This document shows positions 5,912-20,040 of a DNA stretch of 21,574 nt, one piece after another (within the stretch, counting starts at the first letter, position 1; each line of letters opens with the position of its first letter). Where the stretch lies: positions 1 to 21,574 of IMG/VR virus record IMGVR_UViG_3300013114_000230; one strand, 5' to 3'. Made by a program: the position numbers and the translations under genes. Source of the DNA: a virus. Below the pieces are notes generated by a model. It did not search any database. It saw only the letters and a list, made by a program, of their open reading frames with translations, and had not been told where the DNA came from.

Positions 5912-5953
5912 ATAAAAAAAAGCAGTTCAAACAGCATATAAACACCGTTCAAA
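5912..5953 (-). terminator. Terminator after the major capsid gene
   Basis: Minus strand: GCAGTTTGAAC pairs with GTTTGAACTGC (11 bp including two G-U pairs) around a loop of about ten nucleotides, followed by eight T. It lies 45 bp past the stop of the major capsid gene and 27 bp before the next ATG, so it probably reduces read-through into 4392-5885. Confidence 0.75.
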
Positions 5954-5997
5954 CTGCCTTAATAAATATTAAAAAGAGGTTTTTACACCTCCTTTAA

Positions 5998-7212
5998 TTA
6001 TGGTTTTGTGATTGCTCCGATAGCAGTAGCAACATCTGAACACTTCATAAACGCATTAGCGTTGTTATTCTCAACTAAGAATTGAAGTTTAGCTGTAACC
6101 ATCATTGTAACATACTCATCAACAAAGTTAGTTCCGTTAGAATCTGACATTGTTAAATTGATAGAAGTTCTATCTAAGATGTTTCCTTTAGTAGTATCCA
6201 TTACATAAAGATTATTAGCAGCAACATCAACCAAAGGAATAACAAGAATATCACCAACAAAAGTATTACCTCCTACTTTTGAAATTCTAGGATCTAGGTA
6301 ATTTCCGTTTGCGTCTTTTGCAGATTCTACTTGTACGAACCAATCCATTTTGTTAACTAATGCAACATTAGATTTGAAGCTACCTAATTTACCTAATACA
6401 TCAATTTGAGTAGCCATACCCAAAATCAAATCAGCCATGTTAGCGTCTGGTATATTAGCTCCAATAGGTGCATCTACGTTAGCTGGATCAAATTCAGAAG
6501 ATACATTATCAATAGAGTTTGTTGATGTAGTAGAATTAGTTCCTAACAACAAATCAGTATCAATTTTAAAAGCAATAGAATCATTTAAAATAGTTCTATA
6601 TCTGTTTTCTACATATCCATAATCAAGAGCGTAATCCTTACAGATATCTACAGTATCTTTGATCTTTACATAGTTAACTTTTTGCTCTCCAATTTCCTCT
6701 TTAGTTAAAGAAGTAAATGATTTAGCACAACCAGCTACACCTTGAGCATCTCTTACGATACTAGTTTGCTCTAAGTAAGTGTAAGTTTCCGTAATCATTG
6801 GAATACGAGAAAACAAAGAAGCTACTTTAGGCTGTTTCTTTACAATATCAGAAATGCCAGGAGCTAACTGATCTAATACACCTGTTTGAGTTAAATCATT
6901 ATAAGTAGCATCAGCTTTTAATTCAAGTTCAACCTTACCACCATTTGTAACAAATGATTTGATTTCTGTTGATTTCTTTTCAAATTCTTCTGCAAATGCT
7001 GATTTTTGTTCAACCTTAGAAGATTTAACTTCTTTAAGTTTCTCTAATTCAGTACCATTTTTAACTAACTCATCTTTAACAGACTTCAATTCTGTTTGAG
7101 CTGTTTCTAATGCTTCTTTAGTAGCTTTTAATTCTACTTCATTTGATTCAATCTTTGCTGACTTCTCGTTAATTCCTTCGATAGCAGCGTTTAGTTTTTC
7201 TAAACCTTCCAT
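5998..7212 (-). CDS. Major capsid protein, HK97 fold
   Basis: 404 aa. Residues about 1-75 form a long charged coiled coil (for example ESNEVELKATKEALETAQTE), the delta/scaffold domain of HK97-type capsid proteins, removed by the prohead protease. After a linker, the shell domain begins near residue 90, with TQTGVLDQLAPGISDIVKKQ (N-arm and first helix), RIPMITETYTYLEQTS, and the conserved-type segment DANGNYLDPRI followed by GDILVIPLVDVAANNLYVMD. It polymerises into the icosahedral shell. It lies 5 bp downstream of the protease gene and is followed by a terminator, which matches a high-expression structural gene. Family assignment is confident from architecture and gene order. Confidence 0.9.
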   Translation of the reverse strand: MEGLEKLNAAIEGINEKSAKIESNEVELKATKEALETAQTELKSVKDELVKNGTELEKLKEVKSSKVEQKSAFAEEFEKKSTEIKSFVTNGGKVELELKADATYNDLTQTGVLDQLAPGISDIVKKQPKVASLFSRIPMITETYTYLEQTSIVRDAQGVAGCAKSFTSLTKEEIGEQKVNYVKIKDTVDICKDYALDYGYVENRYRTILNDSIAFKIDTDLLLGTNSTTSTNSIDNVSSEFDPANVDAPIGANIPDANMADLILGMATQIDVLGKLGSFKSNVALVNKMDWFVQVESAKDANGNYLDPRISKVGGNTFVGDILVIPLVDVAANNLYVMDTTKGNILDRTSINLTMSDSNGTNFVDEYVTMMVTAKLQFLVENNNANAFMKCSDVATAIGAITKP

Positions 7213-7217
7213 TTTAC

Positions 7218-7853
7218 TTATTTAATTTTTGAAATTATTTTATTCAACTCTATTAATTCATTTTCAGCTTTTTCTTCAACGGCTTGAGTGTCTTGTGACG
7301 GCTCAAGTGCTTTTAGTCTAGCTTCCAAATCTTCAATTCTTTTTATTAATTCTTCTGGTGTCATATTAACTGATTTAAGGTCTAATAGAGGTGTTTCAGA
7401 ATTAGCTCCTAAAAAGTCTAATGTTGAATATTCCATTAGATTAACCTCTTTTAAAATATTTGCTTTTTGTTCTTGTGACTTCTCTTCTTTAACTGTAACA
7501 TAACCGATACTATGCTCTAGTGTTTGATTGTTTTCAGCATAGAATTTATAATCTGAAAATGTTTCTTGACCTAATTGTTTTTCTAGGTTGATCTTTGAAA
7601 CAACATCTAACCCTTTTTCTGTTACTGTCATCTCTATAGGAACCCCTATAGCCTGATTCCAACTATGATTTTTAAGGTGTTTAACCCTTGTCTTTCCACT
7701 AGCTTTAAAATCAGAAATAGATTTATTAAATGCTTTAGAATCCATTATGTCACCATAAGAATCAATGTTACCAAACGCACTAACACGAATCTTTACTATT
7801 CCTTTTTCATCTACATCTTCAATAGATGATTTAGTATTAAACAGTTTCATCAT
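7218..7853 (-). CDS. Prohead protease, HK97 (S78/U35) family
   Basis: 211 aa. It cleaves the capsid scaffold domain during head maturation. The N-terminal motif FGNIDSYGDIM (about 27-37), the His-containing segment VKHLKNHSWNQAIGVP (His59/His63 at 57-72) and the Ser-containing segment LEHSIGYVTV (Ser115) match the His-Ser arrangement of this family; the third catalytic residue is not assigned. The C-terminus (about 165-211) is a charged helical tail that could contact the capsid. It overlaps the portal gene by 17 bp at its start and precedes the capsid gene by 5 bp, the canonical portal-protease-capsid order. Confidence 0.9.
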   Translation of the reverse strand: MMKLFNTKSSIEDVDEKGIVKIRVSAFGNIDSYGDIMDSKAFNKSISDFKASGKTRVKHLKNHSWNQAIGVPIEMTVTEKGLDVVSKINLEKQLGQETFSDYKFYAENNQTLEHSIGYVTVKEEKSQEQKANILKEVNLMEYSTLDFLGANSETPLLDLKSVNMTPEELIKRIEDLEARLKALEPSQDTQAVEEKAENELIELNKIISKIK

Positions 7854-9105
7854 TATCTACTATTTCTGTTCCTACAATTAATTGAGCTTTATCTTCTTCT
7901 ATTCCCATTGTATAAACCAAAGTTTGAATCTTTGACTCGTTAGAAATAGGAGCAGTTAAAACAGATGTTATACTATCAATCTTTAATTTATCTTTTTCAG
8001 CTTTAGTCTTTTGATCTTCTTGTAGAGCATCAACACTACTTAGATCTTGTACTATCCTTAATTCTTTATTCTCGAATGAGTTATAAGCTGGGATAATAGA
8101 CCTATAACCACCAATAATCTTTTCATTGTTAGGTATTACAGCACCAGTGTAAAACTTCTTTTCATCAATCTTAACATTACTTTCAGTTGATGCTGTTTGA
8201 TCGTTGAACATTGTAGCAGGTACAGACAACACATTGCAAAGAGTTCTAAGGTCTATTTGACCACCCTCTAGCATTTGCATTTGTTGAGCAGTCATACCTA
8301 AAGATTGAACACTTATATTTCCTGTTGATACTATGTTTTTCGCGAACTTATCAGCACCACCTAAAAGCTTATCTGTATTCTTTTGTAAATGCTCTCTTTG
8401 GTCTTCTGTCATTATCATATCTGTATTACTTGATATGATATTAGCACCACCTCCATTTTTCAACATTGAAGCTGTAGCCGTGTTACGGTTATTAGAGCTT
8501 GTTAGAGTAGAGTAAGCAGCCTGTAAAGGTGATAACCCCCTTTGACCTTTTATACCTATTCTAGAAGGGTTTAAATAAAGATTATGTACTATCTCTTCTG
8601 TTGAATAGTTAATTATGTTAGTGTCTTTTCTGTAGTACTCATAGCCTTTTACATCGTTATTCACATCGTATAAAAGGTTAACCATGTTAGACTCCAACAA
8701 TTCTAATTCAGTAACCAGATCAAAAGAACTAATTAACTTCTTCCAAAATATATCCCCTGTATTAAGGAGATAAATCATAGTTTCAAACCTAAAATCTTTT
8801 TCTGTTGTGTTAGGATTAGGATTCTTTATAAGGTCGTTAAGAGAGCTTTCTTCGTCTAATTCCCAACCATCAGGAGTATTTTGTTCAACTACAAAAGGTA
8901 TGTTTTTAGCTTCTTCACCAATCTTTTTAATAATAGCGTAAGCATCTGGATTAGATGTATATCCTTCATTTATTAAAATATCATCAGTTTGTAAACCACC
9001 AAAAGTAAACTGATTATTGATAGGCGTTCCTATAGTGTTAATAGAACCATAGCCAAATGATTTTTTTTCTGTATTGTTTTTAAATAGCTTTTGAAAGAAA
9101 TTCAT
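7837..9105 (-). CDS. Portal protein, HK97 family
   Basis: 422 aa. It forms the dodecameric DNA entry channel at one vertex of the head. Visible signatures are the early helix SNPDAYAIIKKIGEEAKNIP (about 52-70), a wing region with LLNTGDIFWKKL, and the turn-rich stretch GLSPLQAAYSTLTSSNNRNT. The following central helical segment (GMTAQQMQMLEGGQIDLRTL) and LSVPATMFND are characteristic of the Phage_portal family. Length fits the family. It sits between the large terminase and the prohead protease, with which it overlaps by 17 bp. Confidence 0.9.
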   Translation of the reverse strand: MNFFQKLFKNNTEKKSFGYGSINTIGTPINNQFTFGGLQTDDILINEGYTSNPDAYAIIKKIGEEAKNIPFVVEQNTPDGWELDEESSLNDLIKNPNPNTTEKDFRFETMIYLLNTGDIFWKKLISSFDLVTELELLESNMVNLLYDVNNDVKGYEYYRKDTNIINYSTEEIVHNLYLNPSRIGIKGQRGLSPLQAAYSTLTSSNNRNTATASMLKNGGGANIISSNTDMIMTEDQREHLQKNTDKLLGGADKFAKNIVSTGNISVQSLGMTAQQMQMLEGGQIDLRTLCNVLSVPATMFNDQTASTESNVKIDEKKFYTGAVIPNNEKIIGGYRSIIPAYNSFENKELRIVQDLSSVDALQEDQKTKAEKDKLKIDSITSVLTAPISNESKIQTLVYTMGIEEDKAQLIVGTEIVDNDETV

Positions 9106-9173: not shown

Positions 9174-10427
9174 CTATGGTAAAAGGTGTGTAAGTGCATA
9201 GCGTACAGCATCAATCAAATGGTTATGATCGTCAACAGGAACGTCTTTTAAACTCCATGCATAATTATTAAGTTCTTTGATTAGATTAGGACTATCACCA
9301 CAAACTACTAATTGATAAGATTGCATCTTTTTAATCCCCGCCAGAACTGAATTAGGTTTCTTTACAACAGGGTATATGTTTAAACCTCCCCTACGTATTT
9401 CGTTTATTAGCCTTAATTCGCTGTTATCTGCTATTATATTAGATTTACCACAGTTATTAATAAAAGCCTGTGTAAGTTCTTTAGTACCTAAATGTTTGGC
9501 GTATAGTATCTCTTGTAAATATATCTTATCTTTTGATACTGCAACTTTTACAATGGTCGAAGGGTCATTAGCAAATCCCCAATCAGCCCCAAATATAAAA
9601 GGTAATGATGTATCAAATTCTCCAACATCCCAATTAGAGAAGATAGCACCGTCAGCTCTTTCTTTCCAACCTCCTAAATACTCGTTTAAATAAAAGTTTT
9701 CAGCATCTTCTTTTTCTGATTCTGTTAAGTTCTTTTTAGTTATAGGGTCAAAACCTTTCTTAGCTCTTGTACGTGCCTGATAAGCCTCTAAAAGCCATTC
9801 TTTATCCAAGTAATCAGTACCTATTAAATATGTTGTATGTATGTGTTCTAATCTAGGATAAGAAGAAACTAAAACATTAAAACCATCTATTTTTTTATAT
9901 CCTTTGTTATCCTCAAACCATTTTTTGTATAAAAAGTGTTCTTTAGTTGTTGGGTTCATAACAAGTATAACCCTGTTTTGTGTGTGCTTTGATCTTATAG
10001 ATTTGTTAATCCTGTTAAATTCAGATTCATCATTAAAATCCTCCGCTTCTTCTACTACCCAATTTGTAACACTTGACAACGATTTAAGGTTACCAGTTTG
10101 AGAACTAGATGAAGTTTTGATACCTGTAAACCATATAAAAGATTTTGTTTTTTTGTTTATTACGTGTGATTCTGTTACGTCAAAATCATCTGTTAAACCT
10201 AATCTATCCATAGCCTTTTTAAACTCTGGTATAATAGACTTTTTCGCAGATGTCATAGTATAACGAGTAAACAAAATACCCTCATCTTTTTTATAAGTAA
10301 GCCTTAATATAAAATCGTGTAAAGAATGAGATTTTAAACTACCTCTACCTCCACTTATAAAAAAATACCTCTTTTTTGATGTATAAAGAGGTAAAAAATC
10401 ATCTTCTATATTATAAGCGTTACTCAT
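9174..10427 (-). CDS. terL: Terminase large subunit
   Basis: 417 aa from the chosen start. It packages DNA into the prohead using an ATPase and a nuclease domain. Walker A is SGGRGSLKS (25-33) and the Walker B-type segment is VVEEAED (124-130). The RNase H-like nuclease shows FGADWG (Asp282), IIADNSE (Asp334) and HNHLIDAVRYAL (Asp406). This layout matches the PBSX/Terminase_3-type family. I chose ATG 10427 rather than an upstream in-frame codon because it overlaps the small-terminase stop by 8 bp (ATGAGTAA), a normal coupling arrangement, and MSNAYNIEDDF is a typical N-terminus. It is followed, 68 bp on, by the portal gene. Confidence 0.92.
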   Translation of the reverse strand: MSNAYNIEDDFLPLYTSKKRYFFISGGRGSLKSHSLHDFILRLTYKKDEGILFTRYTMTSAKKSIIPEFKKAMDRLGLTDDFDVTESHVINKKTKSFIWFTGIKTSSSSQTGNLKSLSSVTNWVVEEAEDFNDESEFNRINKSIRSKHTQNRVILVMNPTTKEHFLYKKWFEDNKGYKKIDGFNVLVSSYPRLEHIHTTYLIGTDYLDKEWLLEAYQARTRAKKGFDPITKKNLTESEKEDAENFYLNEYLGGWKERADGAIFSNWDVGEFDTSLPFIFGADWGFANDPSTIVKVAVSKDKIYLQEILYAKHLGTKELTQAFINNCGKSNIIADNSELRLINEIRRGGLNIYPVVKKPNSVLAGIKKMQSYQLVVCGDSPNLIKELNNYAWSLKDVPVDDHNHLIDAVRYALTHLLP

Positions 10428-10716
10428 CAATATCAAAGTTATCCATAAAATCAATACCTTTTTCTTTGTTGCTTACCCAGTTGATTAATGGTATATCTGT
10501 TATAGAATCTCCGTTTGTTGTGTGGTCAACTGATTGTCTAGGCATACCCACAACATATTTAAACCATAACTCAACAGCCCACCTTTCACCATTTTCAATA
10601 GCTATGTTTAAAGCTGTAAATACTTTAGGGTTTAAGGGGTGAAGTTTCTCAATTACTTTTTGCTCTTCATCTTTTGGTTTTCTTCCTGCCCCTTCTCTTT
10701 TTCCTCCTGCTGGCAT
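10420..10716 (-). CDS. terS: Terminase small subunit
   Basis: 98 aa from ATG 10716. The N-terminus PAGGKREGAGRKPKDEEQK contains the GGxREGAGRKP motif common at the start of small terminases and related DNA-binding phage proteins. It is followed by helices (NPKVFTALNIAIENGERWAV and AVELWFKYVVGMPRQ) and an acidic C-terminus (FMDNFDIDE). It recognises packaging DNA and recruits the large subunit. A longer upstream reading (start 10773) would add a hydrophobic MIGVFYFLYLAF leader over the promoter/palindrome region and is rejected. The stop overlaps the large-subunit start. Confidence 0.85.
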   Translation of the reverse strand: MPAGGKREGAGRKPKDEEQKVIEKLHPLNPKVFTALNIAIENGERWAVELWFKYVVGMPRQSVDHTTNGDSITDIPLINWVSNKEKGIDFMDNFDIDE

Positions 10717-10725
10717 AATGAAATA

Positions 10726-10741
10726 ATTTGAATATTCAAAT
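10726..10741. promoter_or_regulatory. Perfect 16-bp palindrome upstream of the packaging genes
   Basis: ATTTGAATATTCAAAT is a perfect palindrome 9 bp upstream of the small-terminase start codon. Immediately upstream on the minus strand is TATCTTGC (10751-10744), which resembles a Bacteroidota -7 element. The palindrome would therefore lie at or just after the transcription start, a usual place for an operator controlling late genes. Promoter and operator roles are inferred. Confidence 0.4.
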
Positions 10742-10944
10742 GCAAGATACAAAAAATAAAAAACTCCTATCAACCTACTAATAAACCAAGATAAACTTAG
10801 TCATTCAGTCAATAAGAGTTTATAAATAAAGAAACTTTTATCATCATAAGACGAACAAGCATCTATCTAGCCTATTTCAATGTAAAAATGAACAATGTTC
10901 TAAAAAATCATATCTCAAAATTAACCTTTTATAACCTAATAACA
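10742..10944. other. AT-rich intergenic region between packaging and replication units
   Basis: No convincing gene on either strand. It probably contains the minus-strand late promoter (see 10726-10741). I see no tRNA, repeat array or strong hairpin apart from the terminator that begins just to its right. Confidence 0.4.
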
Positions 10945-15327: not shown

Positions 15328-15459
15328 AAATTAATTTTTTTATAAACATCAGTATTAATACAACACCAAAAAAGAAATATTTAAACTTTTTTTACTTTGT
15401 TATAGGAATTATTAAAAATCGGTTGTTACTTTGATTCATCAAAACGAAAAAAAACAGAT
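15328..15459. promoter_or_regulatory. Divergent intergenic region between minus and plus early units
   Basis: Contains the palindrome GTATTAATAC (15352-15361) and two copies of TTACTTTG 34 bp apart (15392-15399, 15426-15433). The latter resemble a -7 element but lack a well-spaced upstream TTTG. GGTTGTTAC (15421-15429) resembles the right-hand end of the attC-like sites and may be the left boundary of the cassette array. It must contain the promoters for both directions. Confidence 0.35.
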
Positions 15460-15738
15460 ATGAACACTAAAGCAGACAAAACAGAATTTTTAAACATCTT
15501 AAATAACTTTGATGCTTCAAACGTTAACTTTAATACTCAAAACGGATTAACTAATGTTAATTTTGCAAACAAAGACTTTACAATAAGTATAGTTTTTGAG
15601 GAAGAAACAGAAGTAATAACGACTATTGAATCTTATAATATTAACGATAACGATAAAGGTATTCTTTTTGATAGTGGAGACGATAATCAATTTGAAGAAT
15701 TTGTTTATAAGTGGTTTAAAAATATTTTAGACCACTAA
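15460..15738 (+). CDS. Array gene 1, acidic hypothetical protein
   Basis: 92 aa, acidic and Asn-rich (NFDASNVNFNTQNGLTNVNF), with a beta-rich middle (DFTISIVFEEETEVITTIES) and a helical end (FEEFVYKWFKNILDH). No motif or signal peptide recognised. Its TAA stop (15736-15738) is embedded in the R''-like box CACTAAC of the first attC-like site, as in integron cassettes. It is the first plus-strand gene, after the divergent promoter region. Its upstream boundary does not show the start/end complementarity of the later cassettes, so it may be the original phage gene next to which cassettes were inserted. Confidence 0.6.
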   Translation: MNTKADKTEFLNILNNFDASNVNFNTQNGLTNVNFANKDFTISIVFEEETEVITTIESYNINDNDKGILFDSGDDNQFEEFVYKWFKNILDH

Positions 15739-15824
15739 CGCTTGTATAAGATACGTGCGACTAAGAAGACAAAACAAATTAAAAATAAATGTTAAATGAG
15801 CATGGATTTTATACCATGTTATAA
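15733..15824 (+). repeat. attC-like site 1
   Basis: R'' CACTAAC (15733-15739); L'' TGTATAAGATACGTGC (15743-15758); L' GCATGGATTTTATACC (15800-15815); R' GTTATAA (15818-15824), with the inferred crossover between G15818 and T15819. The inner arms pair imperfectly over 15 positions. Confidence 0.75.
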
Positions 15825-15834
15825 ATTGTAAAAT

Positions 15835-16047
15835 ATGAGTTGGCAAGAAGATTTAAATAAAAGATTATCAGTAGGAGCAACATACACTATTGATGGAACA
15901 AAGGTAAGACTATTAGAATCTCCTAGAGGTGTAAGTGGATATGGTGGTCATGGTGGTGCTATATTCGTTAGCTGCGAGGTAATCGAGGATGGAGGTAGAT
16001 GGGAAAAAGGAACAACCCAAAGATTAAACGCTGAGTTTTTAAGATAG
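15835..16047 (+). CDS. Cassette gene 2, small Gly-rich protein
   Basis: 70 aa: an N-terminal helix MSWQEDLNKRLS, then strand-rich GATYTIDGTKVRLLESPRG, a Gly-rich loop SGYGGHGGAIFVSCEV and a C-terminal WEKGTTQRLNAEFLR. It looks like a compact beta-barrel. No family recognised. It begins 16 bp inside the cassette start and ends before the complementary R'' at 16054-16062, occupying almost the whole cassette, as typical integron cassettes do. No internal promoter is obvious; expression probably comes from upstream. Confidence 0.6.
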   Translation: MSWQEDLNKRLSVGATYTIDGTKVRLLESPRGVSGYGGHGGAIFVSCEVIEDGGRWEKGTTQRLNAEFLR

Positions 16048-16053
16048 CTTATT

Positions 16054-16241
16054 ATTTATAACGACCCGTCTATAATTAGTGGCGATGTAGTTATGATAAA
16101 CGAACAATCTACCACTTAGCCGAGCTTTATAATTATGTTTTAAATTTCTATTAAACTTAAATATAACGCTTGGCGAACTAAATAAATAAAGTTAAACATA
16201 AAGAACTCACGCAACGCCATTATTTATAGACCTTGTTGTGT
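16054..16241 (+). repeat. attC-like site 2, unusually long or compound
   Basis: R'' ATTTATAAC (16054-16062) matches its own cassette start. GTCTATAATTAGTGGC (16068-16083) pairs with GCCATTATTTATAGAC (16216-16231) at 14 of 16 positions, and R' is GTTGTGT (16235-16241). The 132-nt central part holds a second foldback (16076-16136) and a second R''-like start TATAACGCTTGGCG (16162-16175), suggesting a nested or remnant site. Confidence 0.6.
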
Positions 16242-16271
16242 GTAGTTTTATTACATTTAAAGAATAATATT

Positions 16272-16754
16272 ATGAAAATGTCAGAAGATAAAAAACTAGA
16301 ATTTCAAGCTAACAGGTGGGCGAACAATAAAGAGCGATCACTACGAAATAAATGGTACGCAATAGGTAGAATAGACTTGTTAATTATTTCTATTTCAGGA
16401 GCAGGTATATACTCTTGTTTTGAAATAATAAAATTCATGTATTCTAATAAAATAGAAAGCGAGTTTCTAATGTTAAAAATTGCAGGAGCATTATTTGTAT
16501 TCTCTATTCTACTAAATTTTATATCACAATTTGCGTCTGAATATTCTAACGATAAGAACGCTATTTACAATAACAAAAAATTCAATGATTTGACATCTGA
16601 TGATAAACAAACAGAAGAAAAAACATATAATACCCTTGAATGTAAAATGGATTTATCAGACAATGTAGTGAAGTATTCAAATAGAATATCATCATTTACA
16701 ATGCTTGTAGGTGTGGCTTTAGTTACTACCTTTTTATTTACAATAGTTAATTAG
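16272..16754 (+). CDS. Cassette gene 3, three-helix membrane protein
   Basis: 160 aa from ATG 16272; the longer frame from 16233 begins inside the attC-like site and is rejected. Hydrophilic N-terminus (MKMSEDKKLEFQANRWANNK), then three hydrophobic segments: about 36-56 (LLIISISGAGIYSCFEIIKF), 68-88 (LKIAGALFVFSILLNFI) and 141-158 (MLVGVALVTTFLFTIV), with a charged cytoplasm-like loop between helices 2 and 3. The size and N-terminal charged helix plus helical pairs are reminiscent of small membrane effectors (for example SLATT-type), but no diagnostic motif is seen. A convergent tiny ORF shares its cassette and overlaps its stop. Function unknown; an effector role is speculation. Confidence 0.65.
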   Translation: MKMSEDKKLEFQANRWANNKERSLRNKWYAIGRIDLLIISISGAGIYSCFEIIKFMYSNKIESEFLMLKIAGALFVFSILLNFISQFASEYSNDKNAIYNNKKFNDLTSDDKQTEEKTYNTLECKMDLSDNVVKYSNRISSFTMLVGVALVTTFLFTIVN

Positions 16755-16875
16755 AAGACCTATCACTTCCACCAGACTTTTTTTCGAGTTTTCGAAGTCT
16801 TTCAGCTTCTAATCTCTTTTGTCTTTCAATTTCTTGAAGTTGTTTCTTGTATTCTTCTTCGTGTTGTTTTGACAT
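16747..16875 (-). CDS. Cassette 3 antisense ORF, 42-aa charged coiled coil
   Basis: A complete minus-strand frame: MSKQHEEEYKKQLQEIERQK continuing RLEAERLRKLEKKSGGSDRS and ending SN. It is an almost pure charged heptad helix. Its stop overlaps the stop of the membrane-protein gene by 8 bp, convergently, and its start is about 25 bp from the R'' of site 3. It accounts for the only non-coding part of this 751-bp cassette. Low-complexity codons make chance possible, but the regular coiled coil and tight stop overlap favour a real gene, perhaps a partner or regulator of the membrane protein. Confidence 0.45.
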   Translation of the reverse strand: MSKQHEEEYKKQLQEIERQKRLEAERLRKLEKKSGGSDRSSN

Positions 16876-16895
16876 TTTAAGTTTGGTTTAAGTAT

Positions 16896-16992
16896 TACAC
16901 ACAACGCTACTGTATAAACTGTAAGCGATTGAAGAAATGAATTATTAACATACGAGCTGTATTAGCTTATGGTTTTATACAGCTTGTTACCC
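16896..16992 (+). repeat. attC-like site 3
   Basis: R'' TACACACAAC (16896-16905), a perfect 10-bp complement of its cassette start at 16235. L'' CTGTATAAACTGTAAGC (16910-16926), L' GCTTATGGTTTTATACAG (16965-16982), the latter with one extra base, then CTT and R' GTTACCC (16986-16992). Confidence 0.8.
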
Positions 16993-17005
16993 ACTATTAT
17001 TAGAT

Positions 17006-17296
17006 ATGGATAAGTTTAAAGAATTAGTAAAAAGATGCAAATCTAGTGTTGAAATAAGAGTAAACGACCACAAAGATTATTACCAAACAGTAGAAGAATA
17101 CATTAAAGAAGATGGTTATTTCAATAATGACCATAAGGAAAAAATAGGTGAAACCATTTATAATGAAATGATAAAAAAAGACACTATTGTAATTGTAACT
17201 GCTTACCCCGACTCAGCATTAGGAAGTTATACAATATACCATTATGATATAGATACAGCAGTAGAAACTATACTTGATTGGTGCAATGGTGGGTAA
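17006..17296 (+). CDS. Cassette gene 4, acidic hypothetical protein
   Basis: 96 aa: N-terminal helix (MDKFKELVKRCKSSVEIRVN), a central acidic helix (TVEEYIKEDGYFNNDHKEKI), then strand/turn YPDSALGSYTIYHYDIDTAV and a Trp-containing tail. It has the compact alpha/beta look of small integron-cassette proteins, with no recognised motif. The TAA (17294-17296) lies inside GTGGGTAAC, which is complementary to the cassette start GTTACCCAC at 16986. The site after it is only a half, so this cassette seems fused to the next. Confidence 0.6.
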   Translation: MDKFKELVKRCKSSVEIRVNDHKDYYQTVEEYIKEDGYFNNDHKEKIGETIYNEMIKKDTIVIVTAYPDSALGSYTIYHYDIDTAVETILDWCNGG

Positions 17297-17319
17297 CGCT
17301 TAGTGTAAATTTTGAAGCG
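17289..17319 (+). repeat. attC-like half-site 4
   Basis: R'' GTGGGTAAC (17289-17297) and an L''-like TTAGTGTAAATTTTGAAGCG, without any matching L'/R' before the next gene starts at 17320. Probably the remnant of a deletion that fused two cassettes. Confidence 0.6.
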
Positions 17320-17577
17320 ATGAGAGAAGAGATACTAAAAATATTAGATAATTACCATGTTGAATTACAAGAAGCTGAGGGAATAACTGAAGAGCTTTTG
17401 AATTTACATATTTTTAGCGAAAGTTATATTAAATGTTGGAACTGTAAACAGTTTGAGCAAACAGGAACTAACTACGCTGGTAATGAAGTCGGACACTGTA
17501 AATTAAACAACTGTAAGGTATCACACCCTAAATGGCAAAAGTGCGGAGAATATGAGCAATGCGGTAATTTTCGCTAA
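17320..17577 (+). CDS. Cassette gene 5, cysteine-rich, probably zinc-binding
   Basis: 85 aa from ATG 17320. The first ~40 residues are an acidic helix (EEILKILDNYHVELQEAEGI). The second half is a Cys cluster: CWNC, then GHCKLNNC, then KCGEYEQC, giving six cysteines plus histidines, a plausible zinc ribbon or treble-clef. This suggests nucleic-acid or protein binding. The frame is open upstream into the half-site, so the start is a choice based on ATG; the original 5' end may have been lost in the cassette fusion. The TAA lies in the R'' TCGCTAAC of site 5. Confidence 0.55.
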   Translation: MREEILKILDNYHVELQEAEGITEELLNLHIFSESYIKCWNCKQFEQTGTNYAGNEVGHCKLNNCKVSHPKWQKCGEYEQCGNFR

Positions 17578-17704
17578 CGCTTGTGTAAACGCTTTGCGAC
17601 TTAACTAAATACAAATGTTCCTTAGCACCAAAAAAGACTATTTAAGCACGCCACAAGGCATAAGTACAATGTTCCTTAGCATTGCGTTTTACACCTTGTT
17701 GTAG
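17571..17704 (+). repeat. attC-like site 5
   Basis: R'' TCGCTAAC (17571-17578); L'' TGTGTAAACGCTTTGC (17582-17597); L' GCATTGCGTTTTACAC (17679-17694), with one extra T; CCTT; R' GTTGTAG (17698-17704). The variable central part contains a 14-bp direct repeat AATGTTCCTTAGCA at 17614-17627 and 17668-17681. Confidence 0.8.
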
Positions 17705-17738
17705 TGAGTACAGAATATTAACAATAAAATTAAATAAA

Positions 17739-17873
17739 ATGGACGTAGAAAATAATTTAAAAGCCATTTGTAAATGGTTAAAAGAAGTAAAAGGAATAAC
17801 AGAAATTGATATGATGGATTTAATCAATTATATACCTGAATATGAAGAATGGCTTAAATCAGCACCAAAGTAG
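17739..17873 (+). CDS. Cassette gene 6, 44-aa helical protein
   Basis: 44 aa from ATG 17739 (MDVENNLKAICKWLKEVKGI, then MMDLINYIPEYEEWLKSAPK). The longer frame from 17682 starts inside site 5 and is rejected. It is amphipathic and helical, with no motif. The cassette (17699-17960) is the smallest of the intact ones and holds only this gene. Tiny proteins like this are common in cassettes and might be antitoxins or inhibitors, but nothing shows this. Confidence 0.5.
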   Translation: MDVENNLKAICKWLKEVKGITEIDMMDLINYIPEYEEWLKSAPK

Positions 17874-17877
17874 TATT

Positions 17878-17966
17878 CACTACAACGCTTGTGTAAATGC
17901 CGTGCAAGTGTTACAAATCAAATTAACGGCTACAAATTAAGCATGGTGTTTTACACCGTGTTATCA
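17878..17966 (+). repeat. attC-like site 6
   Basis: R'' CACTACAAC (17878-17886), complementary to GTTGTAGTG at 17698; L'' TGTGTAAATGCCGTGC (17890-17905); L' GCATGGTGTTTTACACC (17941-17957), with one extra base; R' GTTATCA (17960-17966). Confidence 0.8.
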
Positions 17967-17978
17967 ATTATTTATTAA

Positions 17979-18218
17979 ATGGGACAAACTAAAAGAATAC
18001 ACGCAAAAGACTACGCTAAAAACCTATACGGTGAACATAAGCAGTATGTGCATATAGCAACAGAAGCTTTTAGGGCTGGTGAAGATAATGCTGTTTTTGT
18101 AATGAGAAAAGAAAGCGAACTTTATAAGGAACTGGAAGAGTTAAGGCAATACAAAAAAGAAAATGAAGAAATGATAAATGACCCAAACAGATTAGCGGAC
18201 ATGATAGCAGGACTCTAA
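17979..18218 (+). CDS. Cassette gene 7, small helical protein
   Basis: 79 aa, N-terminal basic stretch (MGQTKRIHAKDYAKNLYGEH), then helix YVHIATEAFRAGEDNAVFVM and a coiled-coil segment rich in Glu/Lys (SELYKELEELRQYKKENEEM). No recognised family. It starts 19 bp after the crossover point, a typical cassette spacing. Its TAA is followed by the complementary R'' (ATTGATAAC, 18221-18229) of half-site 7. Confidence 0.6.
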   Translation: MGQTKRIHAKDYAKNLYGEHKQYVHIATEAFRAGEDNAVFVMRKESELYKELEELRQYKKENEEMINDPNRLADMIAGL

Positions 18219-18262
18219 TTATTGATAACGCTTTGGGTATGGAGTCGGTTTTTTACTGATTT
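18216..18262 (+). repeat. attC-like half-site 7
   Basis: R'' ATTGATAAC (18221-18229) is complementary to its cassette start at 17960 and is followed by GCTTTGGGTATGGAGTCGG. There is no recognisable L'/R' and no GTTAGCAAC cassette start before the next gene, so cassettes 7 and 8 appear fused. Confidence 0.5.
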
Positions 18263-18283
18263 GAAACACTAAAACTAAAGATT

Positions 18284-18502
18284 ATGAGTAAAAGTATAAA
18301 TAGATTCTTAATTGAAAAAGGAATTAAAAGCAACGCACAAAAGATAACTATATTACAAATGGTGCAATGGGTAGATGAATGGCAAGAAGAAGTAAAAAAC
18401 TGCTCTATACCTGTTGTTAGCAACTGCGAATGTAAAAACTTACCTAAAGGTGAGGTAGCAATAAGTAGCAAGGCAATAACCAATCCTAATTGGGAAGAAT
18501 AG
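18284..18502 (+). CDS. Cassette gene 8, small hypothetical protein
   Basis: 72 aa: a helical N-terminus (MSKSINRFLIEKGIKSNAQK), helix ITILQMVQWVDEWQEEVKNC, and a loop with three cysteines (NC..., then NCECKNL). It ends ITNPNWEE. The two closely spaced cysteines are too few for a defined zinc site. No family. The gene lies upstream of site 8 and its cassette has lost the expected 5' border. Confidence 0.5.
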   Translation: MSKSINRFLIEKGIKSNAQKITILQMVQWVDEWQEEVKNCSIPVVSNCECKNLPKGEVAISSKAITNPNWEE

Positions 18503-18602
18503 TTGTTGCTAACGCTTGGCTATGATTATGTAGCCTTGAAACACAGAACTTTGAATTAAATATAAACTTTAATAAGGGTATTAATTATAGCCCTTGTTAG
18601 CA
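18503..18602 (+). repeat. attC-like site 8
   Basis: R'' TTGTTGCTAAC (18503-18513); L'' GGCTATGATTATGTAGCC (18518-18535); L' GGGTATTAATTATAGCCC (18576-18593); TT; R' GTTAGCA (18596-18602). The arms differ in sequence from the TGTGTAAA type but keep the same plan. Confidence 0.7.
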
Positions 18603-18614
18603 ACTTTTAAAATT

Positions 18615-18794
18615 ATGAAATTTATAGAGAAAAGTAATGTTAGCTTAAAGCAAAAATTTGGTAATGCAATAACAGGATTTGCAAAAATAGCAGATGGTTT
18701 AATTAGTGTTGTAACATTAGGTAATTATAGAAGTAATTTTTGCTTAATGTTTATAATTTATAGAAAGACAAATAATTTCTTGTTAGATGAATAA
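18615..18794 (+). CDS. Cassette gene 9, 59-aa protein
   Basis: 59 aa from ATG 18615 (MKFIEKSNVSLKQKFGNAIT then GFAKIADGLISVVTLGNY), ending in a hydrophobic stretch (FCLMFIIYRKTNNFLLDE). The frame starting at 18594 overlaps site 8 and is rejected. The C-terminal change of character suggests a possible truncation or frameshift of a longer protein. It is the last gene of the array; R'' TTGTTGCTAAC (18801-18811) closes its cassette. Confidence 0.45.
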   Translation: MKFIEKSNVSLKQKFGNAITGFAKIADGLISVVTLGNYRSNFCLMFIIYRKTNNFLLDE

Positions 18795-18800
18795 TTTTTA

Positions 18801-18840
18801 TTGTTGCTAACATATCGCTAAACGCCATTCAAAAATTGCA
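18801..18840 (+). repeat. attC-like half-site 9, right end of array
   Basis: TTGTTGCTAAC (18801-18811) is complementary to the cassette start GTTAGCAAC at 18596. It is followed by ATATCGCTAAACGCC and phage sequence, with no L'/R'. It marks the right boundary. Confidence 0.55.
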
Positions 18841-19147: not shown

Positions 19148-19657
19148 ATGAGCATTTATAAAAAACTGTTAGAGGTTCAAAAAGAAGTAGGAGCTATTTC
19201 AAAGGACTCTAAAAACCCTTTCTTTAAGTCAAAGTATTTTGATATTAATCAATTAATAGAACACGTACAACCAGTATTAAATAAGAATGGTTTGGTATTA
19301 ACTCAACCTATTATTAAGGGTTATGTATTTAGTTGTTTAAATGATATTGACAGTACAGATTGTATCGAATCTTGTTTAGAATTACCTCAACAATCAGACC
19401 CTCAAAAACTAGGTTCGTGTATTACCTATTACAGACGTTATACATTAGCTTCTTTATTAGGTTTACAGGCTGAGGACGATGATGGAAACAAAGCAAGTAA
19501 ACCAAGCAAACCTAAACCAGTTGAAAAAGTTAAGATAACAAAAGAAGCTTATCAAAAAGCTGTTCAGATGTTAGGAGAAAAGAAAGTTACTTTAGATCAA
19601 ATAAAATCTAAATACATACTTTCAAAAGAACAAGAAGAAACATTAAGTAAAATTTGA
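19148..19657 (+). CDS. erf: ERF-family single-strand annealing protein
   Basis: 169 aa. It anneals complementary single strands in phage recombination. The N-terminus (LLEVQKEVGAISKDSKNPFF, then KYFDINQLIEHVQPVLNKNG) and the signature ITYYRRYTLASLLGLQAEDDD (91-112, shown in part) are characteristic of the ERF family. The C-terminal ~50 residues are Lys/Pro-rich and then helical. It is followed by the DUF3127 gene 20 bp on, a usual partnership of recombinase and single-strand-binding-like protein. Confidence 0.9.
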   Translation: MSIYKKLLEVQKEVGAISKDSKNPFFKSKYFDINQLIEHVQPVLNKNGLVLTQPIIKGYVFSCLNDIDSTDCIESCLELPQQSDPQKLGSCITYYRRYTLASLLGLQAEDDDGNKASKPSKPKPVEKVKITKEAYQKAVQMLGEKKVTLDQIKSKYILSKEQEETLSKI

Positions 19658-19677
19658 ATTATAATTAAACAATTAGT

Positions 19678-20040
19678 ATGAGTTACACATTAACAGGTAA
19701 AATAACTGAAATAAGTGAAAAACAAACTTTAAATAATGGAGGTGCTAAACTTTCTTTTAGAGTTGATACAGGAGATCAATATAACGACCCTTACGAGTTT
19801 GAGTTATACAAAGGTGAGCAGTATTTAGAACATTTAGACAATTTTATAAAATTTAATAAAGTTGGTGATAATGTAACTGTTGAATTTAATCTAAAGTCTA
19901 AATTATGGGTTAATCCAGAAACTAAAATTAGAAAAACATTTACTTCTCTATCTTGTTGGAAGGTTGAAAAGTTAGGAGATTCACAGCCAACACCAGAACC
20001 AGAAAATAGTTCAGAGGTTCATGATAATTTGCTTTTCTAA
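19678..20040 (+). CDS. DUF3127 protein, OB-fold/SSB-like
   Basis: 120 aa. The start SYTLTGKITEISEKQTLNNG, the middle YNDPYEFELYKGEQYLEHLD and VGDNVTVEFNLKSKLW, and the short strand FTSLSCWKVEKL are typical of DUF3127, a Bacteroidota-centred family with an OB-fold-like core. The C-terminus is a Pro/Glu-rich linker ending EVHDNLLF, similar to the acidic hydrophobic tip of SSB proteins. It probably binds single-stranded DNA and works with the ERF protein. Confidence 0.85.
   Translation: MSYTLTGKITEISEKQTLNNGGAKLSFRVDTGDQYNDPYEFELYKGEQYLEHLDNFIKFNKVGDNVTVEFNLKSKLWVNPETKIRKTFTSLSCWKVEKLGDSQPTPEPENSSEVHDNLLF

Follow-up and report, generated by a model that had tools for sequence, protein, structure and literature searches.

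Background

Integrons and the clusters of attC sites lacking integron integrases (CALINs) are the described systems closest to the locus reported here, a recombinase-less array of small gene cassettes in 21,574 nucleotides (nt) of viral DNA (IMG/VR record IMGVR_UViG_3300013114_000230, positions 1 to 21,574, hereafter "the window"). The R' box of integron sites has the consensus GTTRRRY (PMC9892861), the IntI domain is termed essential or defining (PMC8138268, PMC9668308), and IntegronFinder identifies integron integrases via this IntI-specific domain (PMC9668308). Qi et al. (2023, PMC9892861) describe integrase-less cassette arrays (CALINs) in virulent phages, including Polaribacter phage P12002L, so that the view taken in an initial annotation of the window, that phage cassette arrays are little described, is overtaken by work already in print. 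That paper reports recombination with attI1 through IntI1 for one of the two P12002L sites that it assayed.

We propose that the window holds an array of mobile cassettes belonging to an integron-like system of the Bacteroidota, a reading we regard as probable, and that the cassettes, lacking a recombinase alongside, are probably moved in trans. The evidence comprises the anatomy of the array, the pairing of short "labels" at the two ends of its units, a strand asymmetry of its sites, the presence of its units beside other neighbours in other phages, and the linkage of recombinases to related arrays in host chromosomes; beyond these observations we infer circular intermediates, a recombinase supplied in trans and recombination activity as such. 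L and G numbers below are working labels.

Structure of the array

Seven cassettes (c1 to c6 and c8) lie at 15818-18811; six had been reported in the initial annotation and c4 is added here. Each starts with GTT (TTT once) followed by a label of seven bases, the reverse complement of which (6-7 of 7 positions) precedes the closing AAC. The AAC...GTT sites of the form first described are indeed present, with R' and R'' needing to be exchanged, since a phage unit is a core plus the gene that follows it, and that gene points to the attI-like end of the array. In shape the sites are attC-like hairpins whose arms are complementary and whose ends are AAC and GTT.

Beyond GTT/AAC, the starts and ends of the six reported cassettes agree at 7-8 of 9 positions, where most of the 15,520 GTT..AAC pairs of the window match at 1-4; the tail fractions of the six multiply to 3.6e-19, a product of pairs chosen after seeing them. 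With all seven cassettes 45 of 49 label positions match, a total that only the observed pairing reaches among 5040 permutations. The complementarity of a unit's own ends, which might have vanished among relatives, persists there: 38/59 adjacent-site pairs in phages match at 6-7 of 7 label positions against 9/363 other pairings, and 112/124 adjacent pairs in host chromosomes match at 6 or more of 8 positions against 21/898. The host counts use 156 of 168 matches to model R2 (below), the weakest being left out; the phage counts omit 14 rows of L260/L261, which repeat the phage of L254, together with four rows on the opposite strand (two of L255, one each of L267 and L251), and add six rows of L110. 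The common phage unit has the form GTT-N7-(G/T)TT ... AAT-N7'-AAC. The GTTRRRY consensus fits 0/7 window labels, and RRR is found in 12/124 host labels.

Three covariance models were built, R1 from 17 sites, the wider R2 from 58 sites, and R3 from 125 chromosomal sites only, aligned with R2. Window scores of R1 and R2 are not independent, because both models contain window sites. R3, made entirely from other genomes, scores four plus-strand window sites by the genome-search route (S1, S2, S8 and S6, listed below), which bears out the covariance test that the initial annotation had proposed. In a 3'-arm weight matrix from 153 host sites, S2, S8, S1, S6 and S5 are the top five of 1069 GTT triplets on both strands, and S3 is 49th. 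Stems of host sites covary (239 double changes against 63.5 when shuffled, in an alignment that was fitted to the structure).

The features of the array are as follows (ORF, open reading frame).

15460-15738, + strand, c0: 92-aa ORF at the distal (left) array end; no matching start label found
15737-15820, + strand, site S1 (AAC...GTT core): R3 E 1.3e-7
15818-16062, + strand, cassette c1: label 6/7; 70-aa ORF at 15835-16047
16060-16237, + strand, site S2, a long site: R3 E 3.1e-7
16235-16905, + strand, cassette c2: label GTGTGTA, 7/7; 160-aa ORF at 16272-16754
16903-16988, + strand, site S3: matched by R1/R2, both built with S3; missed by R3
16986-17297, + strand, cassette c3: label ACCCAC; 96-aa ORF at 17006-17296
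17295-17415, + strand, site S4: TTT in place of the final GTT; the c4 reading frame overlaps it; R2 E 0.37
17413-17578, + strand, cassette c4: label AGCGAAA, 7/7 despite the first G being T; 85-aa ORF at 17320-17577, beginning within S4
17576-17700, + strand, site S5: matched by R1/R2, both built with S5; missed by R3; fifth of 1069 GTT in the 3'-arm matrix
17698-17886, + strand, cassette c5: label GTAGTGA, 7/7; 44-aa ORF at 17739-17873
17884-17962, + strand, site S6: R3 E 6.9e-4; core family in L255, L256, L258, L262, L264 and L265
17960-18229, + strand, cassette c6: label 6/7; 79-aa ORF at 17979-18218
18227-18250, + strand, half-site S7, with just the AAC arm: ranked first among 1069 AAC by the 5'-arm matrix
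18284-18502, + strand, c7 ORF, after S7: start label not found
18511-18598, + strand, site S8: R3 E 7.3e-7; DNA matches in Cellulophaga and Polaribacter phages
18596-18811, + strand, cassette c8: label 6/7; 58-aa ORF at 18618-18794
18809-18828, + strand, putative attI-like terminal array end: closing AAC plus ATATCGCTAAACGCC, resembling in position and form the closing AAC beside host recombinases

S1-type cores recur at 91-97% identity in L245/L254, L247 and L246/L259, where other genes flank them; short matches to the 3' end of S2 are found in 20/397 genomes, and a relative of S4 in L263 (12534-12654, 69.6%) keeps its GTT. The boundary at 18809 resembles a terminal attI-like end more than a broken attC; a half-site is at 18227. 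The terminal end shares 12 of 14 positions with host ends, which puts it joint first among 1069 AAC, and ranks eighth when 17 positions are used; this similarity is not significant alone. With six full sites and no PF00589 match the window fits the structure of a CALIN (two or more attC, no intI). Plain CALIN membership, as first suggested, is unsupported because the chromosomal relatives of the array go with recombinases lacking the IntI-specific domain.

Units shared with other phages

A gapped site pattern led to ten viral contigs, in which R1 and R2 mark arrays, and DNA comparison of the window points to Cellulophaga and Polaribacter phages. The core and gene of c6 (window 17884-18233) recur at 86.5% in L262 (5034-5386), and another unit is common to L254 (11338-11613) and L263 (13803-14078) at 96%; both shared units begin at the core AAC and finish at the next AA(C), and the neighbours differ in both cases. 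A relative of c3 with the same label ACCCAC lies between other sites in L263 (68% DNA identity), and the S4-type core of that contig stands apart from it. Because units recur between other neighbours, content and order vary among phages and labels stay with the gene; the check for cassette shuffling that the initial annotation had asked for comes out in its favour, c3 and c6 standing between other neighbours.

R3 finds six sites in Polaribacter phage P12002L, six in phi13:2 and four in phi17:1, one weak site in Pseudoalteromonas phage H101, and no site in Freya, TJE1 or Vibrio p16. Two 14-mer scans of viral contigs gave mostly chance matches; in a control on 100 of the 240 14-mer loci, known arrays being removed, R2 marked an array in L110 (six matches) and one weak match in L127. 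Among genome loci bearing the large terminase gene (TerL), R1 matched 0 of 28, and R2 gave one weak match in 36. A phage-specific site class, suggested by a strict gapped pattern present in 10 viral and 0 genome contigs, was dropped; host sites are mostly ~123 nt with longer loops. In L254 and in L261 (7272-19003, record G006, 38 kb), R2 sites extend over ~12 kb, about one third of the 38-kb record.

Chromosomal arrays

R1 detects sites in 5 of 299 genomes, within the family of a Dokdonia metagenome-assembled genome, which was taken as Flavobacteriaceae. R2 over the whole class finds them in at least 25 of 295 genomes, a lower bound because filters were strict and 13 candidates were scored per genome. 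Four of the five R1-positive genomes have a tyrosine recombinase on the side of the array, with the nearest R1 site on the same side ~0.7 kb away in G074, 1.5 kb in G135 and 6 kb in G296. Searched with a profile of these four recombinases at E <= 1e-70, 123 of 199 genomes contain relatives. At 19 of 20 long-form loci and 9 of 13 short-form ones (28/33, loci that were chosen from large contigs, not randomly), the recombinase has R2 sites (E <= 0.01) no more than ~10 kb away, and six random control regions gave 0 R2 sites. All 28 arrays are one-sided relative to the recombinase, and in 24 of them the closing AAC of the nearest cassette is 50-134 nt from the recombinase match; from the sequence, this AAC is a candidate attI-like end.

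One chromosome, G115, carries four identical 644-nt cassettes within ~8 kb (L320, 7456-15125), with breaks at AAC. Their neighbours differ where readable, two flanks being masked, and the copies represent recent repeated insertion or duplication of one cassette. By reading of the ORFs, without a search, host-array genes in L339 (3510-8368) resemble a type III restriction-modification pair, and L341 (2203-4497) has a large NTPase with a restriction-like N-terminus; these are possibly phage defence genes carried as cassettes.

Polarity and strand

Measured against the site, gene direction is the same in 120 of 124 host units and opposite to that in 52 of 59 phage units. The host arrangement is the canonical one of integrons, in which genes read away from attI and attC stands at the 3' end of the gene; the phage genes read toward the attI-like end. 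Stem wobbles on one strand are G.T rather than A.C by 396 to 33 in hosts and 153 to 18 in phages, although the strand was set by RNA models favouring G-U, which may inflate the bias; the assigned strand agrees with gene direction and is constant within each of the 28 host loci. Polarity was read from the wobble count, which replaced a comparison by eye of surplus bases in one arm. Seen from the host side, the favoured strand is the bottom strand of canonical attC. Folding seems to matter in DNA and not in mRNA, because this strand is antisense to host genes.

It is thus very improbable that the stem-loops work in RNA (processing, panhandle protection of mRNA, or termination) and only resemble recombination sites: the sites do stand between co-directional genes and the labels would pair the transcript ends of each gene, but the G.T wobbles favour the same strand whether it is antisense, as in hosts, or sense, as in phages (with the above caveat on strand assignment), and Rfam has no match at the sites at E <= 1.

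Recombinases of hosts and phages

The array-linked host recombinases carry PF00589 and a SAM-like domain. Among curated models NF040815 ("site-specific tyrosine recombinase/integron integrase") comes closest to them, its cut-off being passed by one of four, and their closest solved relatives are PDB 4a8e and 5hxy, then IntI4 (2a3v). In rows with both motifs found, 91-92 residues separate the Arg and HxxR motifs, where a true IntI from that class has 133, and the array-linked enzymes are without the ~42-residue IntI-specific insertion; the spacing is 86-89 residues in the Freya and L381 recombinases. TIGR02249, the model of true IntI, scores above its cut-off in 1 of 395 Bacteroidia genomes, and the recombinases of all five site-bearing genomes fall below it. 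On 14 phage or viral records its sole recombinase match is in Freya. The long-form recombinases of L335, L336 and L341 share a ~80-residue N-terminal stretch (within residues 1-90) that no Pfam model covers.

In a tree of 47 rows, a 100/100 branch parts ten other chromosomal tyrosine recombinases, labelled Xer from size and score alone, from the rows of array-linked, phage and IntI enzymes. The single true IntI falls on a long branch among the array-linked recombinases (support 88/79, placement unsure). Of the 30 long-form loci the tree takes in the first 18, and of the 13 short-form ones 11; the L376 recombinase is absent owing to the ORF filter.

R2 sites occur at 5 of 80 viral recombinase loci (L376-L378, L381, and one site in L431). 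In L376-L378, which are one sequence on contigs of 84-256 kb that are viral by IMG/VR classification, a closing AAC at 9901 precedes the recombinase (9950-10750). L381 has sites at 7450-9021 and a recombinase at 10040-10852, 1 kb after the sites; a scripted search found no closing AAC there. The integrase of Freya (51-866) starts ~46 nt past a closing AAC, near the origin of the record (by eye), and R2 finds one Freya site (E 0.002). The lone L431 site (1053-1172, E 5e-4) lies ~0.8 kb before a viral recombinase match (1958-2683).

Setting of the array in the phage

The source record (21.6 kb) comes from a tailed phage whose TerL is ~42% identical to that of Riemerella phages and 40% to that of Nonlabens phages; its host is probably a member of the Flavobacteriia (Bacteroidota). 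The array, comprising nine small rightward ORFs (c0-c8), is flanked by leftward replication and structural genes on one side and rightward Erf-like and SSB genes on the other (19148-20040, just right of the array), as the initial annotation had recognised in placing an integrase-less array of a Bacteroidota-type phage between divergent units; PF00589 has no match anywhere in the window. An 84-aa ORF stands beside the attI-like end at 18809, where hosts have the recombinase.

Pfam and PHROGs searches gave no convincing function for the cassette proteins. Well beyond the Bacteroidota, the c3 protein (17006-17296) has relatives (26-33% identity) in phages of Arthrobacter, Vibrio and Pseudomonas. 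No relative of the c6 protein was found in the phage collection, and searches of viral contigs returned no relative for c4 and one for c6. A small ORF (~40 aa, by eye) on the minus strand at the end of c2 (16755-16877) opposes the other array genes, and a sub-threshold Rfam match to the SR6 antitoxin on the minus strand at 5912-6000 (30.7 bits, gathering 55) is probably due to chance.

Discussion

In the mechanism that we envisage, a unit would be a core (AAC-arm-loop-arm-GTT) with its gene, closed by a stretch reverse-complementary to the ten bases that follow the core. On excision as a circle the two ends would meet and so restore a hairpin site of full length; one strand in particular would fold, and a XerA/IntI-like tyrosine recombinase would swap units at the GTT/AAC boundary. 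The newest units, by analogy with integrons, would lie at the attI-like end at 18809. The candidate recombinase adjoins the putative attI-like end in hosts, Freya and L376 and is near the array in L381. As the window is without one, its cassettes are probably moved in trans by the recombinase of a host or of a co-infecting phage. Homologous recombination between shared cores, through the phage-encoded Erf annealing protein, could provide a second route.

That second route leads to the main rival, in which the cores are homology linkers and Erf/SSB annealing swaps genes between co-infecting phages with no site-specific recombinase at work today. Cores ~77-97% alike between different genes, one gene common to contigs behind unlike cores, and Erf-like and SSB genes next to the array of a window that has no recombinase gene all speak for it. 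The private ~10-nt inverted repeat at the ends of most genes, the breaks of units at AAC, and the link of the same sites, in hosts as in a few phage contigs, to a recombinase and an attI-like end are left unexplained, and we consider this account unlikely; annealing at shared cores may nevertheless act alongside site-specific exchange.

An ancient CALIN-like capture that has since lost its mobility would account for the damage to S4 and S7 and for c0 and c7 being without a matched start. We think such a relic quite unlikely, given that c6 (86.5%) and c3 (68%) keep their labels among other neighbours in other phage contigs and that the L254 and L263 copies of one unit are 96% alike.

Several results weigh against the array being mobile cassettes of an integron-like system. 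The label threshold is missed by 12/124 host and 21/59 phage adjacent pairs. A default R3 search of the window returns no true site, just a weak wrong-strand match over S2, the discrepancy with the genome-search route being likely a filter effect, and R3 misses S3, S4 and S5. The host 5'-arm matrix performs poorly, placing S7 alone first and the other window sites 21st-742nd of 1069 AAC, probably because spacer length varies. In G115 the nearest R1 site is ~15 kb from the recombinase with an insertion-sequence-like ORF pair between them, and L469 and L476 have no site closer to it than 8-9 kb; the non-random choice of loci and the possible inflation of the wobble bias were given above. Different genes stand behind the S1 and S6 cores, and one gene in L254 and L263 has unlike cores before it, so that core and gene also separate. 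The 21.6-kb record is probably a fragment of a phage genome. Finally, we saw no account in the open-licence literature in which these sites recombine through their own recombinase.

With these points weighed, we still favour a recombinase-less phage array of mobile cassettes, and it seems to us reasonably likely that the Flavobacteriaceae own a widespread integron system with IntI-domain-less recombinases, attI-like ends and long, privately labelled arrays, that phages keep a separate, inverted pool, a few of them with the recombinase too, and that the IntI domain of canonical integrases perhaps came later. A host cassette in a phage array, or the reverse, would be antisense because phage genes are turned round relative to the site. 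Since the single IntI of the tree, unsurely placed as it is, falls among these recombinases, its domain may have been added late to an older cassette system.

The findings point to an overlooked gene-swapping system common to bacteria and their phages. Because IntegronFinder relies on the IntI domain, a system without that domain would pass for orphan attC clusters or escape notice. Should arrays of this kind be common in Flavobacteriaceae, as relatives of the recombinase in 123/199 genomes and arrays at 28/33 sampled loci suggest, cassette exchange is commoner than has been counted, and phages join in it with a pool of their own. The purpose of the IntI domain, the origin of cassettes (cores reappear with new genes whose labels are co-adapted) and the trade of phages in small early genes now become testable.

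Comparison with known systems

As far as the open-licence literature shows, the site class, the IntI-domain-less recombinases and the inverted phage polarity are new, phage CALINs being already known. The open-licence PMC titles and abstracts returned by our searches, preprints excluded, do not describe the site class or its recombinase linkage, which does not prove that such a description is absent. The main text of PMC9892861 has 0 occurrences of "bacteroid" or "flavobact", and the parts of it available to us name no such site class or recombinase.

Integrons and CALINs (IntegronFinder 2.0, PMC9024848) likewise have tandem small genes between AAC/GTT-anchored hairpin sites, complementarity of a unit's own ends and one strand favoured for folding; the closing AAC beside the host tyrosine recombinases is a putative counterpart of attI. 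They differ in that the array-linked recombinases described here are without the IntI-specific insertion (91-92 versus 133 residues between Arg and HxxR), that the labels are GTT plus seven varied nt instead of GTTRRRY, and that R3 finds no site in TJE1 and Vibrio p16, attC carriers according to Qi et al. (PMC9892861). The XerA-like simple tyrosine recombinases (NF040815; PDB 4a8e, 5hxy) are the nearest model and structures to the host recombinases, which differ from them in being array-linked and, in the long form, in an extra N-terminal stretch of ~80 aa. The phage CALINs of PMC9892861 resemble the window array in carrying no integrase, and in one of them, that of P12002L, six sites are found by the host-built model R3.

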